From a virus, in the IMG/VR virus record IMGVR_UViG_3300035156_000198, positions 1 to 64,000 of that record: 64,000 nt of DNA. One strand, written 5' to 3'. This document shows, piece by piece, positions 498 through 34,879 of the stretch. Below the pieces are notes generated by a model. That model saw only the letters and a list, made by a program, of their open reading frames with translations, was not told the origin of the DNA and did not search any database. How positions within the stretch are numbered: the stretch's first letter is position 1; each line of letters starts with the position of its first letter. A program made the translations under genes and the position numbers.

Positions 498-1517
498 GTG
501 ACCACCACCGAGGCGCCGCCGGCGCTGCTCGACATCGCGTTCGGCATCGGCACCTTCAACGTCCAGAACTTGGGCCCCGACCTGACCCGGGCTCAGGTGG
601 TCGCGTGTGGCCGGCTCGCCCGGATGCACGCCGGCTGGATCGGGATGCAGGAGGTCGCCGAGGTCGAGGACGACGAGGACCTCGGCTCCCAGCTCGACGC
701 CGACTACTACCACTGGCACCCCGGCAGCGAGTGCCCGATCTTCGTGCGCAAGTCGCGGTGGCGGCCTACACCGGTCGACCAGCTGCCGGCGGGGTTCAAG
801 CGCACCAGTCTGCGGGTGCTGTCTGACGGGGTGGGCGGACTGAACCCGCGACGTGACCTGACCGGCGCGACGGTGAGCTTCATCGAGAACCCGCTGTTCA
901 CGCCGACGGTGGTGGCCGACACCCACCTGGTCAACGGTGTCGGCAACACCACCGACTACCCCGACACCCAGCTGGTGCGCCGGCAGCTGCGCGCCGAGCA
1001 GTGGGCCGGCCTGGTCGAGCAGACGACGGCGTGGCACCGACTGGGCCTGAACGTGTGCCTGGTCGGCGACATGAACTGGCGGGCCATGCCGGTGCTCGGG
1101 CCGGGGTTCGTGTGGCTGGTGAACGACGGCATCGACAAGATCGGATGGTGGCCGGCCGTCGAGTCGAACTTCGACCTGGTGCTGGTGTCGGCCGAGCGGC
1201 TGACCAACCCGAGCGACCACGACTACCGGGTGGCGAACGTGCGGGCCGTGGCGAACGACCGCTACCCCAAGCCCATCGAGCCGCCGCCGCCGCCGGTGGT
1301 CATCGAGGCGCCGCCCGAGCCGCCGCCGCCGCCGGGCCCGAGCTTGACCGAGCGGGTGGAGACGTGGATCGCCGCCGTCGAGGCCGAGCAGCTCGCCGCC
1401 GCCGAGCAGCTGCGAACCGGTGTGCTGCAGGCGTGGGTCGACGGTGAGGCCGCCGCCCGGGTCGACCGGTTGCGGGAGTTCGAGGCGCTGCGTTCGATCG
1501 TGGGTGAGCTGCCGTGA
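498..1517 (+). CDS. EEP-fold (endonuclease/exonuclease/phosphatase-like) protein
   Basis: The start is GTG 498, with GAGAGG nine bases upstream, rather than the longer ATG frame at 441. The 339-residue product begins with an EEP-like core (FNVQNLG, GMQEV, ADTHLVNG, GDMNWRA, late SDHDYRV), the usual order of metal-binding and catalytic motifs in DNase I-like enzymes, suggesting phosphodiester cleavage. A Pro-rich linker and a helical, probably coiled-coil tail follow. The stop overlaps the next GTG (GTGA), so it heads a translationally coupled cluster. The family is large, so the substrate is unknown. A second EEP domain occurs in the protein at 49143-51539. Confidence 0.7.
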   Translation: MTTTEAPPALLDIAFGIGTFNVQNLGPDLTRAQVVACGRLARMHAGWIGMQEVAEVEDDEDLGSQLDADYYHWHPGSECPIFVRKSRWRPTPVDQLPAGFKRTSLRVLSDGVGGLNPRRDLTGATVSFIENPLFTPTVVADTHLVNGVGNTTDYPDTQLVRRQLRAEQWAGLVEQTTAWHRLGLNVCLVGDMNWRAMPVLGPGFVWLVNDGIDKIGWWPAVESNFDLVLVSAERLTNPSDHDYRVANVRAVANDRYPKPIEPPPPPVVIEAPPEPPPPPGPSLTERVETWIAAVEAEQLAAAEQLRTGVLQAWVDGEAAARVDRLREFEALRSIVGELP

Positions 1518-1687
1518 CCGACGACGACCTGGCGCGCAAGCGGATGCAGCGGCTCATCGAGCGGTCGTCGCTGGGGTCGGCGCCGGCGCGGGCGATGCGC
1601 GCGACGGTGGCCCCCGAGGTCGCCGCCCGTGTCGTGGCCCGCGCCGCCGAGCTGGACGACGACGACGACGACGATGGCCAGCCGTGA
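1514..1687 (+). CDS. Small hypothetical protein with Asp-rich tail
   Basis: This 57-residue frame starts at a GTG inside the preceding stop (GTGA) and ends in a run of Asp. The basic, Ala-rich helical N-terminus and acidic tail match no family I recognise. Coupling to both neighbours and high GC3 support that it is translated. Confidence 0.55.
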   Translation: MTDDDLARKRMQRLIERSSLGSAPARAMRATVAPEVAARVVARAAELDDDDDDDGQP

Positions 1688-1881
1688 CCGAGCCCGGCGA
1701 CACCGACGCGCCGGCGACCCGGCGGCTGGTCGGCGTCGACCTCTCGGTGCTGCCCAGCTCGGACGAGGAGGCCGCCCAGGTGGTGGAGGTCCTGACGCGC
1801 ACCGCCGTCGGCCTGGCCCTCGACGGCATGAGCGTCCAGGTCCGGTGCACCCCGTACGACCATGACCCCGACGATGACTGA
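1684..1881 (+). CDS. Small hypothetical protein
   Basis: A 65-residue protein starting at GTG 1684, overlapping the previous stop by 4 bp. It reads as a small alpha/beta fold with an acidic C-terminus (PDDD). No known family is recognised; the evidence is its place in the overlapping gene chain. Confidence 0.55.
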   Translation: MTEPGDTDAPATRRLVGVDLSVLPSSDEEAAQVVEVLTRTAVGLALDGMSVQVRCTPYDHDPDDD

Positions 1882-1894
1882 CGGAGGAAGCCCT

Positions 1895-2155
1895 GTGGTT
1901 CGATCTGACGGCCTCGACGGCGAAAGTGGCACCGAGGCCCAGCCGACCTCTCCGAACGCGGAGGCGGCTACCCTCCGAAGCCTCCGCCCCGACGCGGAGC
2001 CGATGCGCCCGTTCCCGGTGATGGCTGGCCGGTGCATGGTGTGCGATCCGCGCGCCGACGTGGACGACCTGGTGGGCCATCTGCTCGCCGCTCACCCCGC
2101 GGAGGCCGCCGGCGCCCTGGTCATCGTGCCGCCCGCCGGCCAGGCGCCGTCGTGA
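1895..2155 (+). CDS. Small zinc-finger-like protein
   Basis: The start is GTG 1895, preceded by a strong GGAGGAAG. The 86-residue product has a C-terminal CxxC followed by spaced His residues (CMVCDPRADVDD...GHLLAAHP), resembling a single C2H2-type finger. It overlaps the HNH gene by 4 bp and may be a nucleic-acid-binding partner of that enzyme; this is inferred from position only. Confidence 0.6.
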   Translation: MVRSDGLDGESGTEAQPTSPNAEAATLRSLRPDAEPMRPFPVMAGRCMVCDPRADVDDLVGHLLAAHPAEAAGALVIVPPAGQAPS

Positions 2156-2634
2156 CCGAGTTCGGCGACGACCCGGCCGGGCACGCCGCCCGCCGGGCAC
2201 GCCGCACCGCCGACCGGGCGCCCAGCTCGGCCGGCTCGACCGGGCCGCATCTGCGGTTCCGCGCCGACGACGACGCACCCCCCGACGACTTCGGTGGCAT
2301 CGCCGACAACGGCGAGCCCGACCCGCGCCGGCTGCCGATGCCCCCCGAGGGATGCGTCTGCCGCGCCGAGCACTCACCAGAGCCCCTCGACGGCGACTGG
2401 CACCACGTCTGGCCGCTGGGCATGGGAGGGCCCAACGTGCGAGCGAACCTGGTGTGGCTGTGCCCGACCGCGCACCGCAACGTCCACGAAATCCTGACGC
2501 TGATCGTGGCCCGCAACGGCGAGTTCAGCTGGGGCGACGCCGGCGACCATTACGCCGTGCCGGTCCACCGGTATGCGTTCACACTGGCCCATGAGGGCTA
2601 CCGCCGATTCACAACAGGAAGGCTCGAACCATGA
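2152..2634 (+). CDS. HNH endonuclease-like protein
   Basis: A 160-residue protein from GTG 2152. The C-terminal half has an HNH arrangement: CVC near residue 68, WHHVWPLGMGG, then NLVWLCPTAHRNVH, i.e. a beta-beta-alpha metal finger with paired His and a distal His. These enzymes cut DNA at Mg/Zn-dependent sites; in phages they act in packaging, homing or host-DNA degradation. It is far from the terminase genes, so a packaging role is not indicated. The stop overlaps the metacaspase ATG. Confidence 0.75.
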   Translation: MTEFGDDPAGHAARRARRTADRAPSSAGSTGPHLRFRADDDAPPDDFGGIADNGEPDPRRLPMPPEGCVCRAEHSPEPLDGDWHHVWPLGMGGPNVRANLVWLCPTAHRNVHEILTLIVARNGEFSWGDAGDHYAVPVHRYAFTLAHEGYRRFTTGRLEP

Positions 2635-3515
2635 CCGAGCGCGAGGCCGTCACCATCGGCATCAACGCCTACCCCGACGGGGCGGCCCTGTCCGGGTGCG
2701 TGAACGATGCCGTCGACTGGGGCGACGCGCTGCGCCGGCGCGGCTACAACGTGCTGACCATGCTCGACGGCGTGGCCACCAAGACCAACATCCTCGACAC
2801 CGTGGCCCAGCTGGTCGCCTCGACCGGCTACGGCGACCGGCTGGTGATCCAGTTCAGCGGCCACGGGTCCCGGGTGGTCGACCGGTCAGGCGATGAGGCC
2901 GACGGCTACGACGAAGTGCTGGTGACGATGAACGACGCCGGCGACGGGTTCGACTTCATCCGTGACGACGACATCGCGCGGATCATCGGCGACCGCAAAC
3001 GCGGCGCGAGGCTAACGTTCATCTGCGACTCCTGCTACAGCGGCACGGTGACCCGGTTCGCTGACTTCGACCTCGACGCGGCCCCCGATGAGGTCGACCA
3101 CCGCACGAAGATCCGGTTCATGCCGCCGGCGAAGCTGCTGGGCACCAAGGCCACCAAGGGCACCCCCGAACCGGAGCTCGGGGACGTCGCCGCCGGCCGC
3201 GCCACCAAGGTCGGGCAGACCACCGCGGCGGTGCTGATGAGCGGGTGCGCCGAGGACGAGTACAGCTACGACGCATGGTTCGACCACATCAGCGTCGGCC
3301 GACCCAACGGCGCGTTCACCCGGGTGGCCGTCGATGCGCTGAACGCGCCGCCGGTGCTCGGCGGCGGCACCGTGGTGGCGCTGCCGGTGGTCGAGGACCT
3401 CACCTACAACCGGTGGTACGCGGCGATCCGGGCGAGCTTGCCGTCGGAGGCCTACCCACAGACGCCGATGCTGCTGGGCACGTCGCACCAGCGGCACTAC
3501 ACCGCGGTCGACTGA
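2631..3515 (+). CDS. Metacaspase-like cysteine protease (peptidase C14 family)
   Basis: A 294-residue protein starting in an ATGA overlap with the HNH gene. It has the caspase-hemoglobinase order: an N-terminal strand (VTIGINAY), a helix with CVNDAVDWGDAL, catalytic His in FSGHGS (H78) and catalytic Cys in DSCYSG (C135). Both dyad residues are intact, so it is predicted active; metacaspases typically cleave after Arg/Lys. There is no signal peptide or recruitment domain. It lies between an HNH enzyme and a GH25 lysozyme, an unusual phage context that could mean host-killing, anti-defence or virion processing; none is demonstrated. Confidence 0.85.
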   Translation: MTEREAVTIGINAYPDGAALSGCVNDAVDWGDALRRRGYNVLTMLDGVATKTNILDTVAQLVASTGYGDRLVIQFSGHGSRVVDRSGDEADGYDEVLVTMNDAGDGFDFIRDDDIARIIGDRKRGARLTFICDSCYSGTVTRFADFDLDAAPDEVDHRTKIRFMPPAKLLGTKATKGTPEPELGDVAAGRATKVGQTTAAVLMSGCAEDEYSYDAWFDHISVGRPNGAFTRVAVDALNAPPVLGGGTVVALPVVEDLTYNRWYAAIRASLPSEAYPQTPMLLGTSHQRHYTAVD

Positions 3516-4318
3516 TGGCCACGGTCACCCTCGGCGCCGACGTGTCGACCTACCAGACTGGGCTCACCGTGCCCGAGCTGGTCGCCGCCGGCGTGAAGTT
3601 CCTGGCAGCTCGCGCCACCCGCGGCACCGACTACGCCGACCCGGCCTACCCGGGGTTCCGCGCCGGTGCTGAGAAAGCCGGCCTGCTGTTCAGCCCCTAC
3701 CACTTCCTCTACGCCGGCGAGCCGGTCAAGCAAGCCCGACACATCGCCGCCGTCGTCAAGGACAAGCGGCTGCCGATCACCCTGGACCTCGAGAAGTCGA
3801 CCAAGGGCGGCCGCCCGACGCTGCAGCTGGCCGCCGCGGTGCGCGCCGAGCTGCACGACCTCGGGTTCAGGGTCGGCGCCCTCTACTACCCCCGGTGGTA
3901 CTGGGCCGACTCGGGCCAGCCGTCGCTGCTGACCTGGCGCACCTGGCAATCGGCGTACACCCTCGGCTACAAGAAAGGCGCCCTCCGGGCCCTCTACGCG
4001 CCGGCGCTGGCCGCGGCTGACACGAGCCCGTGGCAGGCGTACGGGGGCGTAGGACCGGCCCTGTGGCAGTTCTCGTCCTCGATCCAGGTGCCGGGGTTCA
4101 CCGCCAACACAGTCGACGGTGACGCTTTCCGCGGCACCCGCACCAGGCTGGCGTCGCTGGACCTGTTCTACGACTACGCGGCGCCGCCGCCGCCGCGGCA
4201 TCCGCAGGCCGTGCAGATTCTCGACCTGGCCCGGCTCGGTGTGCAGCGCAACGCCGACGACCCGGTGCGCAAGGCCAACTTCCAGCGGATCGTGGCCATC
4301 GCCGAGAAACTCGTCTAG
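3515..4318 (+). CDS. GH25 lysozyme-like muramidase with C-terminal extension
   Basis: A 267-residue protein starting in a TGATG overlap. The first 200 residues match the GH25 barrel: GADVSTYQ at the N-terminus, catalytic LDLE (D91, E93), then ALYYPRWYW and LWQFSSS near the barrel end. It should cleave the MurNAc-GlcNAc bond of peptidoglycan. There is no signal peptide. A Pro-rich hinge and about 40 helical residues follow. It lies 30 kb from the M15 lysin/holin cassette, so it is a second, independent wall hydrolase. Confidence 0.85.
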   Translation: MATVTLGADVSTYQTGLTVPELVAAGVKFLAARATRGTDYADPAYPGFRAGAEKAGLLFSPYHFLYAGEPVKQARHIAAVVKDKRLPITLDLEKSTKGGRPTLQLAAAVRAELHDLGFRVGALYYPRWYWADSGQPSLLTWRTWQSAYTLGYKKGALRALYAPALAAADTSPWQAYGGVGPALWQFSSSIQVPGFTANTVDGDAFRGTRTRLASLDLFYDYAAPPPPRHPQAVQILDLARLGVQRNADDPVRKANFQRIVAIAEKLV

Positions 4319-4328
4319 GGGAGACACA

Positions 4329-5453
4329 TTGGACCAGCAGCAGACCGACTCGGTGCGGGCGCTCCTGCAGGAGGCCCTCGCCATCATCGACGCGGCCGCG
4401 GCGCCTCCTGTCACCGAGCCGGCGCCCGAGCAGCCGACGCCGGCCCCGGTCCCCGAGCCGACCCCGACACCACCGCCCGAGCAGCCGACGACCTCGGCGC
4501 GGCTGTGGCTCGACCAGGCCGAGGTCGACCGCATCGCCACCACCGGCACCGCCTGGTCCCGTCTGCTGACCGCCGCGAACGGGTCATGGGGCACCGTCGA
4601 CTTCGGCAACCTGGACAGCAACCACGATGTCTACACCCTCGCCGGCGCCATCGTCGCCGCCCGCACCGGCGACCCGGCCATGCGCGCCAAGGTCGCCGCG
4701 TCGCTGGCGTCGGTCGCCAACGCGACGACGTTCGCGCGGGTGCTGGAGATGTCGAGGCAGGTCCCGCCGTACGGGTTCGCCGCTGACCTGATCGGCCACC
4801 AGGACGCCAAGTTCGACACGTGCCTGACCGGGCTCCTGACCAAGCCGCTAGAGGGGCACTCCGGTGGCCGCAACCTGCTGGAAACCGCCGAGCTGTCGCC
4901 GAACAACTGGGGCACGATGGCCCGCGCGGCCGCCGCGACCATCGCGGTGCGCACCGGGAACACCAAGGTGCTGACCACCGTGGCCAACGCACACCGGTCA
5001 TGGCTCGGCGACACGACGGTGACCGGCCGGCTGGTGTACGGCTCGACCGCGTGGCACGCCTCGACCCCGAAGTGCGGCATCAACCGCAAGGGCGCCACCA
5101 AGGACGGCTACAACTTCGACGGGGTGCTGCCCGAGGACCAGCGGCGCTCGGAAACCGGCGACGCCTACACGTGGGGCAAGAAGGGCACCTACCCGTGGGA
5201 GGCGCTGCAGGGTGCCGTGACCGCCGGGGTGGTGCTGCACCGCGCCGGCCAGGTGCCGTTCACCGCCGTCGATAACGCGCTGGTCCGGGCCGCTCGGTGG
5301 CTGACCGACGTGAACGCCAACCCCGCGACCGGTGACGACCTGTACCTGCCGTGGCTGCTGAACTACTACGGCGGCGCGGGGCTCGCCACGACGACCCCGG
5401 CCGGGCACGGCAAGAACGGCGGGTGGACCGACGCGACGCACGCGCCGCGCTGA
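4329..5453 (+). CDS. Alginate-lyase-like (polysaccharide lyase fold) protein
   Basis: The start is TTG 4329, ten bases after the lysozyme stop, with GGGGAG just upstream. The 374-residue product has a Pro/Glu-rich linker (about residues 25-55) and then an alpha/alpha-toroid-like region (YTLAGAIVAARTGDP, SPNNWGTMARAAAATI, late KNGGWTDATHAPR). NNWG in a Tyr/His context resembles the alginate/chondroitin lyase superfamily. It may depolymerise a surface polysaccharide beside the lysozyme. The family call is from pattern only. Confidence 0.55.
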   Translation: MDQQQTDSVRALLQEALAIIDAAAAPPVTEPAPEQPTPAPVPEPTPTPPPEQPTTSARLWLDQAEVDRIATTGTAWSRLLTAANGSWGTVDFGNLDSNHDVYTLAGAIVAARTGDPAMRAKVAASLASVANATTFARVLEMSRQVPPYGFAADLIGHQDAKFDTCLTGLLTKPLEGHSGGRNLLETAELSPNNWGTMARAAAATIAVRTGNTKVLTTVANAHRSWLGDTTVTGRLVYGSTAWHASTPKCGINRKGATKDGYNFDGVLPEDQRRSETGDAYTWGKKGTYPWEALQGAVTAGVVLHRAGQVPFTAVDNALVRAARWLTDVNANPATGDDLYLPWLLNYYGGAGLATTTPAGHGKNGGWTDATHAPR

Positions 5454-5463
5454 CGCAACACCA

Positions 5464-5497
5464 GAGGCCCCGCCACCCTGGTCAGCGGCGGGGCCTC
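5464..5497. terminator. Bidirectional hairpin terminator between convergent units
   Basis: Perfect 11-bp arms GAGGCCCCGCC (5464-5474) and GGCGGGGCCTC (5487-5497) enclose a 12-base loop. It lies between the stops of the rightward 4329-5453 gene and the leftward 5510-5683 gene, so it can serve both. No T-tract, as is common in actinobacteria. Confidence 0.8.
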
Positions 5498-5509
5498 GGT
5501 GCGCTCGCC

Positions 5510-5683
5510 CTAGCTGGTCGGCGCGTCGGCGAACCGCTCGGGGTGCTGCTCGATGACATCGGCCAGGTCGGCGGCCGCGGCCAGGTACGCCGCCGGCGTG
5601 TTCACCGCGGCCGGCCCGGTGACGCCGGCGCGGAGCCACCACACGATGCGCGCGCGTTCCTCGGCGCGGTGCTGGGCGGTCAC
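5510..5683 (-). CDS. Small helical hypothetical protein
   Basis: A 57-residue, Ala-rich helical protein starting at a GTG that overlaps the upstream stop (GTGA). It is the last gene of the leftward early block and is followed by the hairpin at 5464-5497. No family recognised. Confidence 0.55.
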   Translation of the reverse strand: MTAQHRAEERARIVWWLRAGVTGPAAVNTPAAYLAAAADLADVIEQHPERFADAPTS

Positions 5684-5898
5684 GCCTCGGCCCCGTGCTC
5701 GGCGACCGCGACGCGCACCAGCGCACGCCGGAACGGGTTGTCGCACAACGGGTCACCGTGCGCGTTGGAGAACGCGATGGCGTCCTGCACCAGGTTGAGG
5801 TTCGGCACCCCGTTGCTGGCGATCCACGCGCGGGCGGCCGCGTCGAGCACGGCCGGGTCGGTGAGGTTCACCGGGCGGGTGGTGGTCGAGCTGGTCAT
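5680..5898 (-). CDS. Small hypothetical protein
   Basis: A 72-residue protein; ATG 5898 is preceded by GAAAGGGG. It has a Thr-rich N-terminus and a helical core with LVQDAIAFSNAHGDPLC and a basic helix. Function unknown. Confidence 0.6.
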   Translation of the reverse strand: MTSSTTTRPVNLTDPAVLDAAARAWIASNGVPNLNLVQDAIAFSNAHGDPLCDNPFRRALVRVAVAEHGAEA

Positions 5899-5957
5899 GC
5901 GAGCCCCTTTCGGGCCGGGTGGGGGCCGCCCGAGTGGCGGCCCCGCGGGGTGGTGGG

Positions 5958-6269
5958 TCAGTCGGCGGCGTGGCAGGCGTAGGTGCAGTACTGGTCGAAC
6001 GCCCACATCAGCGTGGTGTCGTCGGCGGCCTCGACCTGGCGGGCCCAGTTCTCGATGGTGCCGGTCCAGCGGTCGGTGCGGCCGAGCGTGGCAAGCTCGC
6101 GGATCATGCCGGCGAGCTGGGCGCGGTCCCAGATGAGCATGATGCTGGTCAGCTGGCCGCGGCCGTCCTTGCCGACGGTGCGGACCTGGCCCTGAATCGT
6201 GCGGAGGGCGGCGACGCGGCGGTCGGTGGCGGTGAGCTTGCGGGCGGCGGGGGCGGTGGTCGTTGTCAT
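5958..6269 (-). CDS. Hypothetical early protein, leaderless mRNA
   Basis: A 103-residue protein with a MTTTT-type N-terminus, an N-terminal basic helix and a WxxxD-containing C-terminus. It is probably translated from a leaderless mRNA: ATG 6269 lies 6 bases after the -10 CAAGAT, with no Shine-Dalgarno sequence. The promoter and its operator are described at 6270-6318. Confidence 0.65.
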   Translation of the reverse strand: MTTTTAPAARKLTATDRRVAALRTIQGQVRTVGKDGRGQLTSIMLIWDRAQLAGMIRELATLGRTDRWTGTIENWARQVEAADDTTLMWAFDQYCTYACHAAD

Positions 6270-7949: not shown

Positions 7950-8357
7950 TCAGGCGCCGCGGGCATCCTCGAGCCTCGGCGCGACGGGCGGTGCGGCGGC
8001 CTCGGCGGCCGCCATCAGCTCATCGAACGTCGGCCGGGTGTTCGTGCCGAGGTCGTGCTGCCACGGCTGCTCGGGGAGCTCCACGTCGGTGACGGGCCGG
8101 TACGCCACCGGGTCGAACTCCGATGCGTCGGCGGCCGACCCGAAGTAGTCGCCGGCGTCGCCCAGCTCGGGCCAGGCGGCGAGCACGTCGCCGGGGGTGA
8201 GGCCGGCGCCGAGGGCCTTGTTCGCCCGGCCGGCCAGGTACGCCGCGGCGTCGGCGGCCTCGCCGTCGCTGGGCACCGCGCCGACGGCGCCTCGGCGTGG
8301 CAGGTCCAGCAGATGACGGAGCAGGGTGTTCAGGTGGTTCGCCTCGGTGATCGTCAC
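7950..8357 (-). CDS. Hypothetical early protein
   Basis: A 135-residue, Ala/acid-rich helical protein from GTG 8357, with GAGAGGGG upstream. No motif is recognised beyond the helical N-terminus and acidic C-terminal region. Confidence 0.6.
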   Translation of the reverse strand: MTITEANHLNTLLRHLLDLPRRGAVGAVPSDGEAADAAAYLAGRANKALGAGLTPGDVLAAWPELGDAGDYFGSAADASEFDPVAYRPVTDVELPEQPWQHDLGTNTRPTFDELMAAAEAAAPPVAPRLEDARGA

Positions 8358-8370
8358 GGGTGGTCCCCTC

Positions 8371-8988
8371 TCAGGTGGTGGTGGTGAGCGGTATGCGGAA
8401 CTCGGCGAGGTTGTCGACCACGCGCCGCGCGGCGTCGGGGTCGGTGCCGACCGGGCCGATGAGGGCCCGGTAGTAGCCGGCGTCGAGGTCAGCGACGGCG
8501 ACGGCTTCCAGGGCGGTCATGGCGTGCGCGCGGGCGTCGTCGGGGGTCCACTGACCGGCCGGCTGCCCGTCGAGGTTGACCACCAGGAACGGGCGCAGCT
8601 GGCGGTCGGGGGTCAGGGACACGCCCGGGGTCAGGGTCAGCATCCCGTCGGTCGGGTCGGGCAACGGTGGCCGGTCGGGCCTGACGGAATCGGCGAGCAG
8701 CCCGGCGGCCGTGCGGTGGTCGACACCGAGCCCGTCGGCGCTGGTCAGCTGGCGCAGCACCGCCGCGTCGTAGTCAGCTCGCGCGGCCGCGGCGAGCACC
8801 GCCGAGGCGTACGCGACGGCCAGCGTCGGGGTCAGGGTCAGCACCCGGTCGGCGCTGACTTCCAGGGTCACCACGTAGGTCGACCCGTCGGCCGAGGGTG
8901 CCGACCGGAGCCACACGTGCCCGGCGACCGGCTCGCCCTGGTCGGTGGCCTGGTCGGTGCGGGGTCGGCGTCCGTTCTTGCCCATCAT
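8371..8988 (-). CDS. Hypothetical protein
   Basis: A 205-residue protein. ATG 8988 overlaps the previous stop (ATGA) with GAAGGG five bases upstream; the adjacent ATG at 8985 is an alternative. Contains alternating beta (STYVVTLEVSADRVLTLTP) and Ala-rich helical segments. Function unknown; conserved codon bias supports it as real. Confidence 0.6.
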   Translation of the reverse strand: MMGKNGRRPRTDQATDQGEPVAGHVWLRSAPSADGSTYVVTLEVSADRVLTLTPTLAVAYASAVLAAAARADYDAAVLRQLTSADGLGVDHRTAAGLLADSVRPDRPPLPDPTDGMLTLTPGVSLTPDRQLRPFLVVNLDGQPAGQWTPDDARAHAMTALEAVAVADLDAGYYRALIGPVGTDPDAARRVVDNLAEFRIPLTTTT

Positions 8989-9242
8989 TCGGTCCCTTCG
9001 TCGTCGGTTAGGTCGGGGTCGCCGCCGACGGCGGCGGCGAGTACCTCGCGGTTGCGTAGCTGCTCGGCGGGTGTCAGCTCGGGCACCGCACCAGGTGCCG
9101 GCGCCGGCCGGCGGCGGGGTGCTGCAGCTGCTCGCCGGCGGGGCCGCGGCTCGGGCACGTCGGCGCCCCATGACGGCCGCGGCTGGTATCGCTCGGCGGT
9201 GAGGCGGGCCAGGGTGTCGGCCAGAATCTCGCGGCGGCTCAC
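8985..9242 (-). CDS. Basic hypothetical protein
   Basis: An 85-residue protein from GTG 9242. It has a helical N-terminus, a long Arg/Pro/Ala-rich middle and an acidic end (LTDDEGTE). Coupled to both neighbours. It could bind nucleic acid through the Arg-rich segment, by composition only. Confidence 0.55.
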   Translation of the reverse strand: MSRREILADTLARLTAERYQPRPSWGADVPEPRPRRRAAAAPRRRPAPAPGAVPELTPAEQLRNREVLAAAVGGDPDLTDDEGTE

Positions 9243-9277
9243 CGCTGCCGTACCCTGGCCGTGGTGGTAGTGGTCAT
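9239..9277 (-). CDS. Possible 12-codon leader ORF
   Basis: ATG 9277 has a good ribosome site (CAGGAG, 10 bases upstream) and reads a 12-residue peptide (MTTTTTARVRQR). Its stop overlaps the GTG of the 8985-9242 gene. It probably serves translational coupling of the downstream gene rather than making a functional product. Confidence 0.35.
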   Translation of the reverse strand: MTTTTTARVRQR

Positions 9278-9348
9278 GCGCTGGTTCTCCTGTCTGGGGC
9301 GGCGCGGTGGGCGGCCGGTCCCGGGTGGGGCCGGCCGCCCTGACTGTC

Positions 9349-9549
9349 TCAGCGGTCGGCGCGGTGGGCGCGTTGCACCGCCGACATCGGCACGAAGTCG
9401 CCGCTGCCCTGGTGCACGAACCCGTCGGGCTCGGCGGTGAACCGCCATGGCCCGGTGACCAGCTGGCCGGCCTGGCCGGCGGCGATGGTGAGCATGGCGT
9501 ACACCGGCGCGTCGGTCGGCCTCGGCATCGGGTCGGGCGCCTCGGTCAT
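9349..9549 (-). CDS. Small hypothetical protein
   Basis: A 66-residue protein from ATG 9549 with GAGAGG upstream. It reads as a small beta-rich fold (GPWRFTAEPDGFVHQGSGDF). No family recognised. Confidence 0.55.
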   Translation of the reverse strand: MTEAPDPMPRPTDAPVYAMLTIAAGQAGQLVTGPWRFTAEPDGFVHQGSGDFVPMSAVQRAHRADR

Positions 9550-9637
9550 CGTGTGGTGCCTCTCGTGGTGGTGGTGGCGGGGGAGGGTGCCGGCGGCCCC
9601 CGGGGGAGGGTGCCGCCGGCCGAGGTGGTGCTCAGGC

Positions 9638-10660
9638 TCAGGCGTCGGTGAGCACCCGCGACAGGTTCCAGGCCGCGTCGCGCAACGGCTGGTCGCCACC
9701 GAGAATCGACCGCTCGGCGCGCTTGATGGCCGCGGCCTCGGTCGACTCGGTGCCGCCCTGCACCGGCGCCATGTGGTCGAGGTACTCGGTGATGGCCTGC
9801 AGGCCGGCCCACGCGGTGCCCCGAATGTTGGCTTGCGTGTCGGCGTCGGCCCACAGCTGCACCAGCTTGTCGGTGCGCTTCTTGTGGCTGGTGACGGTGC
9901 GCTTCCCGGCGTCGGGGTCGAGCTTGCCGAACACCCCGTCGATGATGCCGATGAACTCGGCCTCGGTCTGCGTCTGCTGGATCATCGCCTCGGCCTCGGC
10001 CTGGAACGTCGAGAATCCGTCGATGGCCAGGCCCATCTGCTGCCGGGCCTTCTCCACCATGCCGGTCTGGCCGCTGGTGTGCCTGATGCTGGCGGCGCCG
10101 ACGGCGCTGGCCTCGCCGCGCCGCTGGGTGTTCTTGCACACCGTGCGGACCTCGGTGGCGTAGAACCGGGTCGAGCGGCTGCCGTCGTGCGAGGTCACCG
10201 CGGCGATGAACAGGTCGAGCTGGTCGACGCCGCCAATCTTCATGCCCTCGGGCATCTTCGTGGTGACGAAGACCTCGCGGCCGCCGCGCATGCTGCCGGC
10301 CGTCTCGATGTTGCCGTGCGTCTCGTGCACCAGGGCGTCGAGGAAGTCGGTCAGCTCCTCGTTGTGGAACGGCTGCCACTGCTCGCCGACGGCGCTGCCG
10401 ATCAGCTGCTCGGCGCCGGTGAAGGGGTTGTCGCGCACCACGGTGTACGACCCGGTGGGCACCAGCTCGCCGTTCAGCATGACCATGCTGGGCACCTTGC
10501 GCAGATTCCAGCCGGCCAGGTGTGCGTGCTTCAGGGCGACCTCGGCGGTGAGCGGGGTGCCGACCAGCTCGCGGGGGAGGTTGTTCAGGCGGTGCCAGGC
10601 GTCGTCGCGGGTGTCGACGAAAGCGACCTCGGTGCCGTGCTGCTCAAGTTCGTGTGCCAT
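9638..10660 (-). CDS. DUF932 (phage/plasmid-like TIGR03299) protein
   Basis: A 340-residue protein; ATG 10660 has GAAAGG upstream and is preferred over the longer frame from 10717. N-terminal WHRLNNLP, mid-protein RDNPFTGAEQLIG and RRGEASAVGAASIRHTSG, and the length match the DUF932 family common on phages and plasmids. Biochemical role is unknown; roles in DNA repair or anti-restriction have been suggested for relatives. Transcribed from the class-1 promoter at 10706-10748, here with a roughly 40-nt leader. Confidence 0.8.
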   Translation of the reverse strand: MAHELEQHGTEVAFVDTRDDAWHRLNNLPRELVGTPLTAEVALKHAHLAGWNLRKVPSMVMLNGELVPTGSYTVVRDNPFTGAEQLIGSAVGEQWQPFHNEELTDFLDALVHETHGNIETAGSMRGGREVFVTTKMPEGMKIGGVDQLDLFIAAVTSHDGSRSTRFYATEVRTVCKNTQRRGEASAVGAASIRHTSGQTGMVEKARQQMGLAIDGFSTFQAEAEAMIQQTQTEAEFIGIIDGVFGKLDPDAGKRTVTSHKKRTDKLVQLWADADTQANIRGTAWAGLQAITEYLDHMAPVQGGTESTEAAAIKRAERSILGGDQPLRDAAWNLSRVLTDA

Positions 10661-10705
10661 GAGGGTGATGCCTTTCGGGTGGTGGTGAGTGGGTCGAACA
10701 ATGCA

Positions 10706-10748
10706 AGCATAACGCATGCCAGGTTAGACGCAAGCCCCTGTCTAGACC
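10706..10748 (-). promoter_or_regulatory. Class-1 promoter with CTAG operator (leadered)
   Basis: Leftward: operator TGTCTAGACC (plus-strand reading, 10739-10748), 4-bp gap, -35 CTTGCG (10729-10734), 17-bp spacer, -10 TATGCT (10706-10711). The geometry matches the leaderless class-1 promoters, but the gene starts 46 bases downstream with its own ribosome site. Confidence 0.7.
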
Positions 10749-10764
10749 AGGGCTCGAGGATCGG

Positions 10765-11196
10765 TCAGAAGCCCCCCACGACGCGGCCGTCAAGCTCGCG
10801 GGCGATGGTGTCGAGCTGGGCCCGCTTCGGGCCGGTCACCGCCCAGTTCGTGCCGACCACCACGGGCGCGAAACCCTTGGCGATGTCGGCCCAGCTGTCG
10901 CGGGCCTCGGGCCCCTCGAACAGCCACATCTCCGCGGGGCCGCACGTCGCGCCGTCGCTGGTCAGCATCTCCAGCTCGCCGGCCGGCAGGTGCCGCGGCC
11001 GCCGGCCCTGGCAGGCGACCTCGGCCACCTGGTCGAGCGTGAGCAGCTCGGGCGCCGCCGCGCTGCTGCTGGCCACCGCCGAGGCCGACTCGGCGGCCTG
11101 GTCGACCGAGGGCCCAGCACCGCCGCCGCAGCTGGTGAGGGTCACGGCGGCCAGGAGGGCGGCCGCCGAGCGGGTGAGAGTGGTTCTGCGTGCCAT
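10765..11196 (-). CDS. Predicted lipoprotein
   Basis: A 143-residue protein from ATG 11196 (GAAAGG upstream). It has a basic start, a hydrophobic stretch (AAALLAAVTL) and a lipobox-like LTSC, so lipidation at the Cys near residue 23 is expected, with anchoring on the outer face of the membrane. The mature part has a Ser/Ala linker and a compact domain with two Cys residues. Phage lipoproteins are often superinfection-exclusion factors; that is an inference here. Confidence 0.7.
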   Translation of the reverse strand: MARRTTLTRSAAALLAAVTLTSCGGGAGPSVDQAAESASAVASSSAAAPELLTLDQVAEVACQGRRPRHLPAGELEMLTSDGATCGPAEMWLFEGPEARDSWADIAKGFAPVVVGTNWAVTGPKRAQLDTIARELDGRVVGGF

Positions 11197-11227
11197 GAGC
11201 TTGCCTTTCAGGTGAGCGGCCATCTGC

Positions 11228-11246
11228 CGTCAATGGGTAGTTGACA
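11228..11246. promoter_or_regulatory. NGTCAA-N7-TTGACN inverted repeat (site 2 of 5)
   Basis: CGTCAA (11228-11233) and TTGACA (11241-11246) with a 7-bp spacer, in the gap upstream of the lipoprotein gene and 50 bp past the stop of the 11296-11721 gene. Same spacing as the other four copies. Confidence 0.55.
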
Positions 11247-11295
11247 CCAGAGAGCCGACGGTGAGGGGCCCCGAGCGGTTGCCCGGGGCCCCTGG

Positions 11296-11721
11296 TCAGG
11301 GCCCGGAGACAGAAGCCTCCGGGTCGGTGTGATGGTCGGGGTCGGGGCACGTCGCCGGGTGACAGTGACGCGCGCACGCCTTGTTCTCGATGTGGCAGCG
11401 GCCGCACTCCGGCCGCGGCACGCCCGGGCCGACCAGGTGGGCGAGCAGCTCGCCGGTCACGGCCAGCATCGGCGACGAGAGACGTTGCGGCGGCCCAGCT
11501 GGGCGCACCCCTTCGTCGCCGGCGCCGGCCAGGCGGTAGTAGGTGATCACGAACGGCTCGGGCTGCAGCTCGGGCACGTGCCCGATGGTCCAGGTGCCGG
11601 TGTCGCCGGTGACGATGACCAGGCCGGCGTCGAACCCGTGCCCGACGCCGGCGGCGTCGAGGGCCTCGACCACCGGGCCGAGCCCGAGCACGTCGGCCGG
11701 GGTCAGCTCGCCGGCGGTCAC
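11296..11721 (-). CDS. Hypothetical protein with C-terminal Cys/His cluster
   Basis: A 141-residue protein from GTG 11721. The N-terminal part is alpha/beta; the last 40 residues hold a Cys/His-rich cluster (CGRCHIENKACARHC, then CPDPDHH) likely to bind zinc. Function unknown. Confidence 0.6.
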   Translation of the reverse strand: MTAGELTPADVLGLGPVVEALDAAGVGHGFDAGLVIVTGDTGTWTIGHVPELQPEPFVITYYRLAGAGDEGVRPAGPPQRLSSPMLAVTGELLAHLVGPGVPRPECGRCHIENKACARHCHPATCPDPDHHTDPEASVSGP

Positions 11722-12107
11722 CAGGTCACCGCCGCGGTCAGGTCGCGCCGGGCGATGAGGTCGAGGTCCTCGGTGTCCAGCTCGCGCGCGTGGTGGGCGC
11801 ACAGCTGCACCGTGACGTGCCCCCACTTGTCGCGGCCCGGGTCGTCGCCGGGGTCATTGTCGGGCCCGTCGTGCAGGCACGCCGCCCGGTAGGCCTCCCA
11901 TGCGGTGGCCTGGTCGACCCCGAGCGCGGTCATCTGCCCGTCGACCATCATGGCCACGTACGACGCGGCCTGGCCGTCGTCGTAGGTCAGCTCGACGGTG
12001 GCCCGGTCGCTGCACGGCATCGAGTCGCGGCTGCCGTCGAAGTCGGTGAAGTGGTCCTCACCCTCGCATCGGTCGGCGTCGGTGACGCGGGTGGTGTTCA
12101 GATTCAT
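11718..12107 (-). CDS. Hypothetical acidic protein
   Basis: A 129-residue protein from ATG 12107 (GAAAGGCA upstream). It contains several Cys and His residues (CEGED, CSDRA, QLCAHHARELD) within an acidic, mixed alpha/beta sequence. Overlaps the next gene by 4 bp. No family recognised. Confidence 0.6.
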   Translation of the reverse strand: MNLNTTRVTDADRCEGEDHFTDFDGSRDSMPCSDRATVELTYDDGQAASYVAMMVDGQMTALGVDQATAWEAYRAACLHDGPDNDPGDDPGRDKWGHVTVQLCAHHARELDTEDLDLIARRDLTAAVTW

Positions 12108-12397
12108 CGGGTGCTGCCTTTCGTGGTGGTGGTGGTGCGGTTGGCTTCGTGGTGCTCGGTGAGCCACGCGAGGGTGCCCTTCATGGTCTGGGCCTGCGCC
12201 GACTGGTGGTTCAGTCGGGCGCCGTCGGCGTCGAGCTGGCGGGCGATGGCCTCACGGGTGGCCTGGTCCTCGCCGGCGAGGTTGTCGGCTGCCCACTGGT
12301 AGCCCAGCCGGCGGTACTTGTCGCCGCGGCGGTGCTCGGCGTCGGCCGAGGCGTAGTCGCGGCCCTTGTGGTCGGTGCCGCGTGCCACGCCGGTCAC
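12104..12397 (-). CDS. Hypothetical helical protein
   Basis: A 97-residue, charged, mostly helical protein from GTG 12397 (GTGA overlap with the HTH gene). Possible coiled coil in the middle. Function unknown; second gene of the leftward unit that starts at 12690. Confidence 0.6.
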   Translation of the reverse strand: MTGVARGTDHKGRDYASADAEHRRGDKYRRLGYQWAADNLAGEDQATREAIARQLDADGARLNHQSAQAQTMKGTLAWLTEHHEANRTTTTTKGSTR

Positions 12398-12690
12398 TTG
12401 CCGAACTTCTGCTGGGCGGCCTGGCGGGTCATGCCCAGCTCGCGGCCGACCTCGGTCCAGCTGTAGCCGAACTCGCCGTCGTGCAGGCCCTTGGCCGCGG
12501 CGACCATGGCGGCGTCGATGTCGGCGCGGGCCTGTGCCAGCGCGGAGAGGGCCTCAAGGTCGCCGGCCTCGGCGCGGCGGGCCATGCCTCGGGCGACGCG
12601 GCCGATCATGGCGGCCATGTCGGGGGCCTCGTAGGACTTCTTGGCGCGCTTGGCGGTGGTGCGGGTGGCGGTGGTGGTCGTCGTCGTCAT
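12394..12690 (-). CDS. HTH DNA-binding protein, leaderless mRNA
   Basis: A 98-residue protein with a Thr-rich start, a helical middle and a C-terminal helix-turn-helix (YSWTEVGRELGMTRQAAQQK), a small regulator type common in actinobacterial mobile elements. ATG 12690 is 6 bases from the -10. Since its own promoter carries a CTAG palindrome, it is a candidate for the protein that binds that operator family, by autoregulation; not shown. Confidence 0.7.
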   Translation of the reverse strand: MTTTTTTATRTTAKRAKKSYEAPDMAAMIGRVARGMARRAEAGDLEALSALAQARADIDAAMVAAAKGLHDGEFGYSWTEVGRELGMTRQAAQQKFGK

Positions 12691-12764
12691 GTGTCTATCT
12701 TGAGCCCTGGAGCTCGGAAACACAAGCCCTAGGCCCCATTAGTTTCTAGTGGCCTAGACCACCC
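12691..12764 (-). promoter_or_regulatory. Class-2 leaderless promoter with distal CTAG operator
   Basis: Leftward: operator read as GGTCTAGGCC (12751-12760), -35 TTGTGT (12720-12725), 17 bp, -10 CAAGAT (12697-12702), 6 bp, ATG 12690. About 75 bp is near-duplicate to the promoter at 47138-47210. The operator edge lies about 60 bp from the start codon instead of 40 as in class 1, roughly two helical turns more. Confidence 0.7.
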
Positions 12765-12774
12765 CCCGACCGTC

Positions 12775-12810
12775 TACCCTGGTGGGGGCCCCACACCCCC
12801 TACCACCAGG
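12775..12810 (+). promoter_or_regulatory. Putative late promoter and 5'-UTR hairpin for the packaging/head genes
   Basis: TACCCT at 12775-12780 matches the hexamer found upstream of the tail (23227) and lysis (33989) units. It runs into a hairpin with arms CCTGGTGG (12778-12785) and CCACCAGG (12803-12810). TerS starts 58 bp past the hexamer. The -35 is not obvious, as expected if a phage factor assists. Confidence 0.45.
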
Positions 12811-12837
12811 CACGGGGCCCACGACGGAGGCACCACG

Positions 12838-13299
12838 ATGGGAAAGCGCGGACCCGCCAAGAAGCCAACGAACCTCGCCCTGCTCCACGGCGACCGACCC
12901 TCACGGGTCAACCTCGACGCACCCCCCGGCCCCGACGGCCACGCCGAGCCACCCCCCGACATGCCCGCCGACGTGCGCGCCGTCTGGGACTACACCGTGC
13001 AGCAGCTCGACGTGATGCGGCTGGCCTCACCAGCTGACCGCGACGCCCTGGCCTGCTACTGCGAAGCGGTCGTGACCCACCGGAAAGCCTCGGCCCTGGT
13101 CGCCAAGGCCGGCGTCCTGGTGAGCCCCTCACGCGGCACCGTCCCGGTCAGGAACCCCGCCCTGGCCGCCCAACGCGACGCCGCCATCCTGGTGCGCGTG
13201 TACGCCCGCGAGTTCGGCCTGACCCCCTCGGCCCGGTCCGAGCTGACCGCCGGCGACCGCCGCGACACCGCCGGCAGTGCCGCCCGACTCCTGTCCTAG
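12838..13299 (+). CDS. Terminase small subunit, P27 family
   Basis: A 153-residue protein starting MGKRGPAKKPTNL, the signature opening of P27-type TerS, with a conserved later core (VWDYTVQQLDVMRLASPADRDAL, RNPALAAQRDAA). It recognises phage DNA for packaging and loads TerL, encoded two bases after its stop. First gene of the late rightward region. Confidence 0.88.
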   Translation: MGKRGPAKKPTNLALLHGDRPSRVNLDAPPGPDGHAEPPPDMPADVRAVWDYTVQQLDVMRLASPADRDALACYCEAVVTHRKASALVAKAGVLVSPSRGTVPVRNPALAAQRDAAILVRVYAREFGLTPSARSELTAGDRRDTAGSAARLLS

Positions 13300-13301
13300 C
13301 C

Positions 13302-14990
13302 GTGACCGTCGAGGCCCCCCCGAGGCCGACCCGGCGCCCATCCGGCCGCCGGCCGCCGACCAAGCTGCCCCGGTGCGGGTTCACCATGGACGGCCGTACC
13401 TGCCGCCGGCGCGGCGACCACCTGTGCAAGCCGCGCGCCGACCACGTGAGCGCGTTTTTCGGCGAGCTGCTGGTGCACACGAAAGGCCGATGGGCCAGGC
13501 ACCCGTTCCTGCTCGAACAGTGGCAGGCCGACGACATCGTGCGGCCGGTGTTCGGCACGGTCATCTACGACGCCACCGAGGCCCGCTACGTGCGGCGCTA
13601 CAACATCGTGTGGATCGAGGTCGCCCGCAAGAACGGGAAGTCCGAGCTGCTCGCCGGCATCGCCCTGTACCTGCTGGTCGCCGACCACGAGGAAGGCGCC
13701 GAAATCTACGGGTGCGCCAAGGACCGCGACCAGGCCCGCAAGGTGTTCGACGTGGCGCAACGCATGGTCGAGCTGTCGCCGGTGCTGTCAGCTCGGCTCG
13801 ACGTGAAGGCCCAAGCCAAGCGCATCGTGGACCAGGAAACCGGGTCGTTCTACGAGGTCGTCGCCGCCGACGCCGCCGGCAACCTCGGCCACAACCCGCA
13901 CGGCATCGCGTTCGATGAAGTGCTCACCCAACCGAACGGCGACCTGTGGGAAGCGATGAAAACCGGCATGGGCACCAGGTCGCAGCCGATGCTGGTGGCC
14001 GCCACGACCGCCGGGAACGACCCGGCATCGTTCGCCAAGAGCGAGCACGACGAGATGATGCGCATTCTCGAGGACCCGTCCCGGTCGCCGCGCACGTTCG
14101 TCTACATCAGGAACGTGCACAAGGACGCCGACCCGTGGGACGAGAGCTTGTGGCCGCAAGGGAACCCCGGCCTCGGGTCGTTCCTGAAGTGGGAGACGTT
14201 GCGCAGCGAGGCCGTCGAGGCCCGGTCGAACAAGCGCAAGGAGAACAGCTTCCGGCAGTTCCGGCTGAACCAGTGGGTGCAGCAGACCACCCGCTACATC
14301 AGCCTCGACCAGTGGGACGCCAACTGCCGCGAGGTCGCCGCGACACCTGACTGGCTCCGCGAGCGGTACGCAGGCGAGAAGTGCTGGGCCGGCCTGGACC
14401 TGTCATCGAAGCTCGACATGACCGCCTGGACGCTCCTGTTCGGCGACGGCACGATCATGTGGCGGTTTTGGATGCCCGAGTCGGTCGTGCCGATGCTCGA
14501 CAAGCACACCGACGGCCAGGTCGGCCGGTGGGTCGAGGACGGGTGGATCGTGGCCACCGAGGGCGACGTGATCGACTACGAGGCCATCTACACCGCCGTC
14601 GAGGCCGACGCCGAGCACTTCGCCATCGCCTCGGTCGACTACGACAAGTGGAGCGGCGAGCCGGTGCGGCAAGCCATCGAGGCCCGCACCGGCCTGGACG
14701 TGATGCACGAGTCGTCCACCACCTACGAGCGCATGACCCAACCGATGAAAGAGCTGATGAGGGCGCTCAAGGCCGGCGAGCTGAACCATGCCGGCAACCC
14801 CGTGGCCCGCTGGATGGCAGACTGTCTGGAGGCGAAGAGCCCCTCAGATGACCCCGACCGGGTAAGACCGGTCAAGCCTGACCGGGGTCAAAGCGGCAAG
14901 AGGATCGACGGCATGGTCACACTGCTACTAGCACTTGACGGCCGGCTGACTGTCGACGCCGACGAGCTGCCGGCGGCCGACATCTTCTAA
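13302..14990 (+). CDS. Terminase large subunit
   Basis: A 562-residue protein from GTG 13302. The ATPase domain has a Walker A-like ARKNGKSE (K113) and a Walker B region ending in FDEV. The C-terminal RNase H-like nuclease shows GLDLSSKLDMTAW and SVDYDKW acidic positions. It cuts concatemers and drives DNA into the prohead. Belongs to the YmfN/TerL group paired with P27-type TerS. An early CxxxC-type patch (residues 26-47) is a small N-terminal extension. Confidence 0.92.
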   Translation: MTVEAPPRPTRRPSGRRPPTKLPRCGFTMDGRTCRRRGDHLCKPRADHVSAFFGELLVHTKGRWARHPFLLEQWQADDIVRPVFGTVIYDATEARYVRRYNIVWIEVARKNGKSELLAGIALYLLVADHEEGAEIYGCAKDRDQARKVFDVAQRMVELSPVLSARLDVKAQAKRIVDQETGSFYEVVAADAAGNLGHNPHGIAFDEVLTQPNGDLWEAMKTGMGTRSQPMLVAATTAGNDPASFAKSEHDEMMRILEDPSRSPRTFVYIRNVHKDADPWDESLWPQGNPGLGSFLKWETLRSEAVEARSNKRKENSFRQFRLNQWVQQTTRYISLDQWDANCREVAATPDWLRERYAGEKCWAGLDLSSKLDMTAWTLLFGDGTIMWRFWMPESVVPMLDKHTDGQVGRWVEDGWIVATEGDVIDYEAIYTAVEADAEHFAIASVDYDKWSGEPVRQAIEARTGLDVMHESSTTYERMTQPMKELMRALKAGELNHAGNPVARWMADCLEAKSPSDDPDRVRPVKPDRGQSGKRIDGMVTLLLALDGRLTVDADELPAADIF

Positions 14991-15010
14991 GCGCGAGGGA
15001 GCACCCCGAA

Positions 15011-17871: not shown

Positions 17872-18747
17872 ATGACACTGCAAACCCTGGTCGTACCGAT
17901 CGAGTGGAAGGCCGACGACAAGGACGCCGGCGTCATGGTCGGCTACGCCTCGACGTTCGGAAACGTCGACCTCGGCGGCGACGTGGTGATGCCCGGCGCG
18001 TTCGACAAGAGCATCGCCGACATCAAGGCCGACGGCATCCCGCTGCTCGCCGACCACCTGGCCGCCACGTCGCACGTGCTCGGCACCATCTACGACGCCC
18101 TCGCCGACGACAAGGGCCTGAAAATCTGGGCCAGGTTGAGCAAGGCACCGTCCGCGGTCGACACCACCACGAAGATGCGCGAGGGGCACCTAGGCAAGCT
18201 GTCCATCGGCTACGAGACGATGGATGACAGCTTCGAGGACCGCGACGGCATGCGGGTGCGGCTGCTCAACGATGTGAAGCTGTGGGAGACCTCGGTGGTG
18301 GTGTTCCCCATGAACCCGAAGGCGGCCATCACCGGCGTGAAGTCGCTGCTCGGCGCCATGGTCGCCGGCGGTGTCGGCACCCCCGAAGAGTTCGCCGCCG
18401 AGGCCAAGGCCGAGCACGTCAAGGCCGCCGCCGGCGGCGAGGGCCTGTCGACCCTCGACGCCTGGCGCATTGAATACGCGGTGGAGACGAAGACCGGCGT
18501 ACCCTCATCGCAGCCGGCTCCCGCAGAGCCGGGTCGGGCCTCCGCAGGGCCCACCAGCACGGAGGCCCCGCCCTCGGGTGAGGTCAAGAGCACGCCCACC
18601 GACGCCGGCGACCAGCCGACGAAGTGGGATCGGCTCAAGAGCGAGGCGCTCCTGGCCGACCGCCCGACCGGCGAAATCGACGCCACCACTCGGGCCGCCC
18701 TGAAAACCTCTCTGGAGCTGGCCGAGAGCCAGCTGCCCCGCGACTAG
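17872..18747 (+). CDS. HK97-family prohead protease (S78)
   Basis: A 291-residue protein; ATG 17872 with GGAAGG upstream is chosen over 17845. It shows VGYASTFGNVDLGGDVVMPGAF, the His region LADHLAATSHVLGTI and the Ser motif KLSIGYE of herpesvirus-type prohead proteases. It should process the capsid delta domain. The C-terminal 100 residues are a Pro/Glu linker and helix, possibly a scaffold part. Confidence 0.9.
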   Translation: MTLQTLVVPIEWKADDKDAGVMVGYASTFGNVDLGGDVVMPGAFDKSIADIKADGIPLLADHLAATSHVLGTIYDALADDKGLKIWARLSKAPSAVDTTTKMREGHLGKLSIGYETMDDSFEDRDGMRVRLLNDVKLWETSVVVFPMNPKAAITGVKSLLGAMVAGGVGTPEEFAAEAKAEHVKAAAGGEGLSTLDAWRIEYAVETKTGVPSSQPAPAEPGRASAGPTSTEAPPSGEVKSTPTDAGDQPTKWDRLKSEALLADRPTGEIDATTRAALKTSLELAESQLPRD

Positions 18748-34022: not shown

Positions 34023-34160
34023 GTGCCGACACCGATCCCCGAGCTTGACGCCTACGACGACATCGACCCCGATGTCGACTCACTGGTGGGCGAGCCGGCC
34101 GACGCCGACCACGACCTCGACCCGGACACCTTCACCGAGGAAGAGGACGACACCCCGTGA
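34023..34160 (+). CDS. Small acidic protein heading the lysis unit
   Basis: A 45-residue, very acidic protein from GTG 34023 with GGAGGG seven bases upstream. Its stop overlaps the endolysin GTG (GTGA). No fold is evident; it may couple translation of the lysin or act as a small regulator. Confidence 0.6.
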   Translation: MPTPIPELDAYDDIDPDVDSLVGEPADADHDLDPDTFTEEEDDTP

Positions 34161-34879
34161 GTAGCTACTTCCTGGCGCCGGCGCTGCTGCAGCTCCGCGA
34201 CGAAGTGAACACCGCGTTTCCGCACCGCGACAAGTCATCGTGCGGCTGGATCGGTGACACGTCGCACGCCGCCCGGGTGAGCGACCATAACCCGTGCTGG
34301 TCGTGCTCGGGCCGCCTGGAAGGTGTCGTGCGGGCCCTGGACACCGACATAGACGACGGCGACCCCGGCCGCGACTTGCGCCGGCAGATTCTGAACGCCG
34401 CGGTCGGTGACCGGCGCGTGTGGTACGTCATCAGCAACGGCACCATCTACAGCCGCACCTACGGGTGGGCGGCCCGCCGCTACACCGGCAGCAACGGCCA
34501 CTTCAAGCACGTGCACATCAGTCTCAGGCACGGGGTCGGGGAGTTCGACACGTCGCGCTGGTTCCCCGACATGAAGCGGCCCGGCCTGGCGCCGAGCTTG
34601 GCGCCGGCCGTCGACCTGTCGAACGTGCGCGAGCAGTTCCTTCGGGCGCTGGGCGTCGAGGCCGGCGAGGTCACCGCCCTGCCCGGGGTGGCCCGGGTGC
34701 AGCGGTCGCTGAACCAGAAGTACGGCATGACGCTGACCGTGGACGGCTACGTCGGCGAGGGCACCCTGCACGGCTACGGGGTGCACGAGGCCGCCCGCGG
34801 CATCGAGGGCCGCCCCCGGGTGCCCGACGAGAAGACCCTGCCGCCGCTGATCGGCCCGACGTACCGCATGGTCGCCTGA
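34157..34879 (+). CDS. Endolysin: M15-type peptidase with C-terminal helical domain
   Basis: A 240-residue protein from GTG 34157. The N-terminal 140 residues have the M15/VanY-like zinc pattern (HAARVSDHNP, VRALDTDIDDG, HFKHVHISL). The C-terminal 80 residues (VARVQRSLNQKYGMTLTVDGYVG) look like a peptidoglycan-binding domain. It should cut peptidoglycan cross-bridges or stem peptides. Next to a holin-like gene, so this is the main lysin; GH25 at 3515 is separate. Confidence 0.82.
   Translation: MSSYFLAPALLQLRDEVNTAFPHRDKSSCGWIGDTSHAARVSDHNPCWSCSGRLEGVVRALDTDIDDGDPGRDLRRQILNAAVGDRRVWYVISNGTIYSRTYGWAARRYTGSNGHFKHVHISLRHGVGEFDTSRWFPDMKRPGLAPSLAPAVDLSNVREQFLRALGVEAGEVTALPGVARVQRSLNQKYGMTLTVDGYVGEGTLHGYGVHEAARGIEGRPRVPDEKTLPPLIGPTYRMVA

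Follow-up and report, generated by a model that had tools for sequence, protein, structure and literature searches.

A stand-alone, type I-like metacaspase is encoded by an uncultured tailed phage, IMG/VR record IMGVR_UViG_3300035156_000198 (linear; 74,174 bases), of which positions 1 to 64,000 constitute the stretch of DNA analyzed here (the window). Its gene (positions 2631 to 3515, plus strand; 294 amino acids from an ATG start codon) overlaps that of an endolysin, and in several phage clades, though not in all, its relatives occur next to small membrane proteins and to peptidoglycan hydrolases that belong to unrelated families, a link to lysis which the original prediction had missed. We put the chances at roughly even that the product is an active, Arg/Lys-specific, prodomain-less enzyme which is made late and forms part of the lysis programme, alongside the endolysin. 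In the proposed scheme, the metacaspase would be expressed with the late genes, coupled to the GH25 endolysin through overlapping stop and start codons, and would cleave cytoplasmic or inner-membrane-facing proteins when infection ends, candidate substrates being host proteins of the envelope or of cell division, the holin or endolysin of the phage itself, or host protein in bulk. Such cleavage would help to open the cell and release the virions.

The record represents a genuine tailed phage, as the same contig carries genes for the terminase large subunit, portal, S78 head protease, major capsid protein, tape measure protein, and a RecE-like exonuclease. The terminase is closest to that of Streptomyces phage Chymera (52%) and to those of mycobacteriophages such as Bask21 (47%), which makes an actinobacterial host likely.

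Fold, S1 pocket, and calcium site of the metacaspase

The metacaspase open reading frame shows strong coding bias (codon-position GC) and a single Pfam match, to Peptidase_C14 (PF00656; 2e-21, 77 bits against a cutoff of 21). The PADLOC caspase model also matches, PHROGs return just a weak, unnamed family, and no second domain was found with any of these three resources. A profile alignment covers both the p20 and the p10 part of yeast Yca1, with p10 directly following p20 as in type I metacaspases, and no N-terminal prodomain is present. The AlphaFold2 model (pLDDT 82, pTM 0.83) places the first strand from residue 4 onwards, and a Foldseek search with this model returned GSU0716 of Geobacter sulfurreducens (PDB 3bij) first, followed by plant, fungal, and trypanosome metacaspases; GSU0716 is likewise the best match by sequence (2e-21; profile, 3e-61). 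The His/Cys dyad, which the original prediction had described as intact, is formed by H78 (within SGHG) and C135 (within DSC), both of which are invariant in an alignment of 51 sequences. With this dyad in a caspase fold, the protein is a member of peptidase family C14, and the description of a stand-alone, phage-encoded metacaspase-like protease holds, given the one Pfam domain and the viral hallmark genes on the contig.

The S1 pocket is formed by C23, D26, S76, and D133, which are retained in all 51 aligned sequences with the exception of S76 (50 of 51). These residues correspond to C92, D95, S156, and D211 of TbMCA2, the acidic pocket accommodating Arg or Lys in that enzyme, and their retention suggests the same specificity for the phage protein.

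The calcium site appears to be altered. Three aspartates (D94, D112, and D113) corresponding to the Yca1 site are kept. At the fourth ligand site, where Yca1 has D283, the phage protein has R142 (50 of the 51 sequences carry Arg here and one carries Lys). The Yca1 ligands D236, D252, and D283 are those reported previously (PMC12914765), their numbering having been transferred to the phage protein via the profile alignment. Judged from its residues, the protein thus has the architecture of a type I metacaspase but lacks a prodomain and the full type I Ca2+ site; R142 may act as a stand-in for the cation or as a self-cleavage site. An influx of Ca2+ upon holin opening was considered as the trigger of proteolysis; this idea is attractive but doubtful because the fourth ligand is invariantly Arg or Lys.

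Certain relatives bear features that suggest a membrane location. C-terminal membrane helices are present in the metacaspases of contigs L017 and L019, and the N termini of those of L004, L034, L052, L056, L058, and L060 look amphipathic or bear MC(W/F)KK-like starts; no membrane tail was found in the window metacaspase. A further variation concerns segment order. In five contigs (L052, positions 5427 to 6239; L056, 9914 to 10711; L057, 54 to 602; L058, 9734 to 10540; and L060, 9335 to 10159), which encode proteins with 41 to 72% identity to that of L056, the Cys motif DSC(F/Y)SGT and p10 come first, and the His-bearing strand, HNS(S/T)HG...GDE...DD, is located at the C terminus. An assembly slip was ruled out as the source of this order because it is conserved across the five contigs; the structural model of a member of this group is weak (pLDDT 62). 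The known type III metacaspases represent a different rearrangement, in which p10 precedes p20.

The endolysin gene and lysis context across phages

The metacaspase gene lies within a codirectional run from position 498 to 5453 (plus strand), in which most open reading frames overlap slightly. The original prediction had placed the protease beside HNH, EEP, and lysozyme genes, and these assignments now differ in strength. The lysozyme assignment is solid, being a GH25 endolysin (3515 to 4318; PF01183, 4e-16; PHROG endolysin, 8e-36) of the LysA type of actinophages, which resembles lysin A of mycobacteriophages Gaia, Minerva, and Optimus and lysins of the same type from corynephages and Rhodococcus phages. 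The HNH-like nuclease (2152 to 2634) has modest support from PHROG_655, a homing endonuclease family (1.8e-5). The EEP-like nuclease or phosphoesterase heading the run (498 to 1517) has no Pfam match and is recognized from the motifs FNVQN, MQEV, DTHL, GDMN, and SDHDYR and from similarity to genes of Streptomyces phages (27% identity, 2e-12), a number of which are annotated as phosphoesterase. Between the two putative nuclease genes lie three small open reading frames, two of which are supported by coding bias and overlap (1514 to 1687 and 1684 to 1881), while the third, taken from the open reading frame list (1862 to 2155), has an uncertain start and no Pfam match. The run ends with a 374-amino-acid protein with a Pro-rich linker (4329 to 5453; start codon uncertain), possibly an alginate lyase-like toroid as judged from a weak, subcutoff match to Pfam Alginate_lyase (0.0077); no relatives of it were found in phage records.

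The HNH and metacaspase genes share the sequence ATGA at their stop and start codons (a 4-nucleotide overlap), and the metacaspase stop codon TGA (3513 to 3515) shares one nucleotide with the endolysin start codon ATG (3515 to 3517; TGATG). No holin-like small membrane protein is encoded within the run, candidates being located elsewhere in the window. Beyond the tail genes, positions 34157 to 35157 encode a 240-amino-acid protein resembling a Glutamicibacter phage gene product, directly followed by a 92-amino-acid protein with one helix, which may represent a second endolysin-holin pair; such a pair would weigh against the proposed lysis role of the metacaspase.

Lysis context was assessed across 49 viral records carrying metacaspase relatives. 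A tally of the two neighbors on either side (Pfam and PHROGs) had yielded few lysis matches per family and prompted family searches of each whole record. GH25 was found in 2 of the 49 records, DUF5675 (itself without assigned function) in 3, and N-acetylmuramidase and CHAP in 1 each, in every case by the metacaspase gene, while one of the two GH108 records showed the same arrangement; all matches to these five families, bar one GH108, lay within 1.2 kb of the metacaspase. None of the four records with an Amidase_2 match had it nearby, and a subthreshold match to this family (1.7e-4) adjoins the L056 gene. When Amidase_2 and the GH25 gene of the window were included, 9 of 14 matches (15 when counting Phage_lysozyme) lay at most 1.5 kb from a metacaspase gene, as opposed to 1.1 expected, and the resulting P value of about 1e-8 is optimistic since the families were partly or mostly chosen after the neighbors had been read. 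Restricting the comparison by excluding the window and contigs shorter than 20 kb left 5 of 10 matches against 0.35 expected (P = 9e-6). For the families of which no neighboring match had been seen beforehand, adjacency was absent: Phage_lysozyme had a single match among the 49 records, distant from the metacaspase, and Peptidase_M15_3 had none.

Small hydrophobic proteins follow a similar pattern. In four clades, they account for 27 of 88 genes within two positions of the metacaspase versus 6 of 242 genes further off (P = 3e-12), as compared to 6 of 59 versus 11 of 176 (not significant) in the remaining clades; the four clades were grouped after reading. Contigs within a clade are related, so the P values of this test and of the adjacency test overstate independence. 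Most of the small membrane neighbors have no match to holin profiles, and the label "holin-like" reflects their size and hydropathy alone. In contig L009 (record 62001 to 74174), positions 3981 to 4526 encode a 181-amino-acid protein which, judged by eye, resembles a permuted hydrolase of the NlpC/P60 or YiiX type; a protein bearing a membrane helix is encoded nearby. The context is also uneven within the five-member clade of the window, in which an endolysin gene is the immediate neighbor in the window alone and the metacaspase genes of L002, L012, and L013 are surrounded by those for terminase and portal, and no lysis context was seen in the jumbo-phage relatives.

Relatives and alternative roles

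By tblastn, only 1 of 50,697 INPHARED phage records, an uncultured 485-kb phage, carries a relative of the metacaspase, and the caspases below 1e-3 in BFVD derive from giant viruses, with no phage caspase among them. Scans of IMG/VR yielded 52 loci with relatives, nearly all stand-alone; the uncultured viral contigs carrying such genes number about 50. In the tree, the window protein groups with that of L011 (support 99/93), also from a phage contig, and both are joined by those of L002, L012, and L013 (94/89); this clade adjoins one of beta-proteobacterial and cyanobacterial proteins, the combined group being supported at 98/98. A second clade of 12 members is entirely viral (98/95). An archaeal-virus origin of the L022 to L039 group was considered and dropped, as the capsid protein is closest to those of phages of bacteria. 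Homologs and neighbors had been proposed as a check on the original prediction. The matches of the gene itself are not restricted to host chromosomes, its nearest tree neighbor being a phage contig and its relatives lying on some 50 viral contigs; the full gene arrangement seen in the window was found nowhere else.

Of the best 80 genome loci, most are from beta-proteobacteria, with full-length matches at about 41% identity by tblastn (about 41 to 46% for the beta-proteobacterial chromosomal relatives). These cellular relatives are chromosomal, and most of the loci read adjoin a gene for a giant protein of 1,800 to 2,000 amino acids. In L067, L071, L073, L075, L093, L094, and L103 (at around positions 8000 to 15000), the beta-proteobacterial metacaspase is followed by an uncharacterized protein of 1,800 to 2,060 amino acids, a conserved pair which looks like a conflict system.

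Such chromosomal loci, together with the PADLOC caspase match, make it plausible that the phage gene is a copy of a defense protein, and the jumbo-phage relatives occur in nonlysis contexts. The metacaspase could thus serve counterdefense or host takeover by cleaving immune or other regulatory proteins of the host, its proximity to the endolysin being incidental; we regard this as unlikely, given that the endolysin gene overlap and the late-gene neighbors in several clades do not suggest early host takeover. An effector of exclusion or abortive infection, carried as phage cargo and killing the cell upon entry of a rival phage, would be consistent with the use of caspase-like protease effectors by bacterial conflict systems (PMC8195603) and with the neighboring HNH and EEP nucleases. 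As no sensor domain or family and no known signaling gene was found in the run from 498 to 5453 with Pfam, PHROGs, or PADLOC, we consider this role very unlikely, and nothing in this analysis supports the earlier suggestion that the protease kills the hosts of competitors.

The original prediction had also raised the processing of virion proteins, a suggestion which is now weakened. A protease acting on a structural protein during head or tail morphogenesis would fit the location of the metacaspase gene after the portal gene in L012 (where an HNH-like open reading frame, read from the sequence, lies 3' of it), between the terminase and portal genes in L013, and between neck-like and sheath genes in L016. 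The structural neighbor, however, varies from phage to phage, and a canonical S78 head protease is present in L002 and L013 as well as in the window phage. That of the window (17872 to 18747, plus strand; PHROG_80, 2.4e-38) occupies the HK97-type place between the portal and capsid genes. Head maturation was rejected as the main role because the phage has its own S78 protease, and assembly proteolysis in general is quite unlikely. That a host fragment was fused to a phage contig is scarcely conceivable: the beta-proteobacterial chromosomal relatives are as near in identity as the phage relatives, but GC content is constant along the contig, the metacaspase gene overlaps a phage-type endolysin gene, and its nearest kin in the tree are phage contigs. 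Contamination was rejected on the grounds of the constant GC content and this phage kinship.

Returning to a function in lysis, we tentatively extend the proposal beyond the window, though with the balance somewhat against so broad a claim: metacaspases may constitute a recurrent and overlooked fourth lysis component, beside holin, endolysin, and spanin, which was acquired more than once, in which the basic residue that replaces one Ca2+ ligand would free the enzyme from Ca2+ control and of which one phage group would have moved the His strand to the C terminus.

Comparison with known systems

An association of metacaspases with phages is not in itself new. A 2012 survey described phage-related metacaspase operons in Clostridium botulinum, which have their phage association in common with the window gene, with no lysis link reported there; the same survey noted an amidase within the metacaspase operon of G. 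sulfurreducens (PMC3501461), the metacaspase in question presumably being GSU0716. We found no report on phage-encoded caspases linked to lysis, and the link across unrelated phages is new as far as our literature searches show.

GSU0716 resembles the window protein in its single-chain p20 and p10 caspase fold, similar length, and basic residue (Lys) at the Ca2+ ligand position, and differs in being cellular and uncharacterized; the two proteins are 24% identical over their structural match. Type I metacaspases (Yca1, 4f6o; TbMCA2, 4af8; Candida glabrata, 7qp0/7qp1) share the order p20 then p10, the motifs GCxND, SGHG, and DSC, the S1 pocket residues, and three of the four Ca2+ ligand aspartates; unlike them, the window protein is prodomain-less and phage-encoded, and the fourth ligand is Arg or Lys in 51 of 51 sequences. 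Prokaryotic orthocaspases are C14 proteases that also prefer basic residues (PMC5756287, PMC6426788), but they possess, by definition, p20 without p10, and the window protein, having a p10-like part, is not an orthocaspase. Metacaspases of the giant viruses Fadolivirus, Clandestinovirus, and Medusavirus are alike in fold (BFVD, E value of 5e-15 and weaker), their hosts being eukaryotic. The stand-alone metacaspases of Dechloromonas, Rhodoferax, Accumulibacter, and Cyanobium form a supported group with the window clade and differ in being chromosomal, by the giant-protein gene in most loci read.

Bacterial caspase homologs are mostly treated as host suicide or defense proteins, and a fused or adjacent sensor is expected of the defense effectors among them; none was found in the run of the window metacaspase with Pfam, PHROGs, or PADLOC. 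If a lysis-tied phage family is confirmed, proteolysis would join the known steps of phage lysis, substrates of prokaryotic metacaspases would become directly testable through one simple late enzyme, and the same fold would serve the attacker at the killing of its host.
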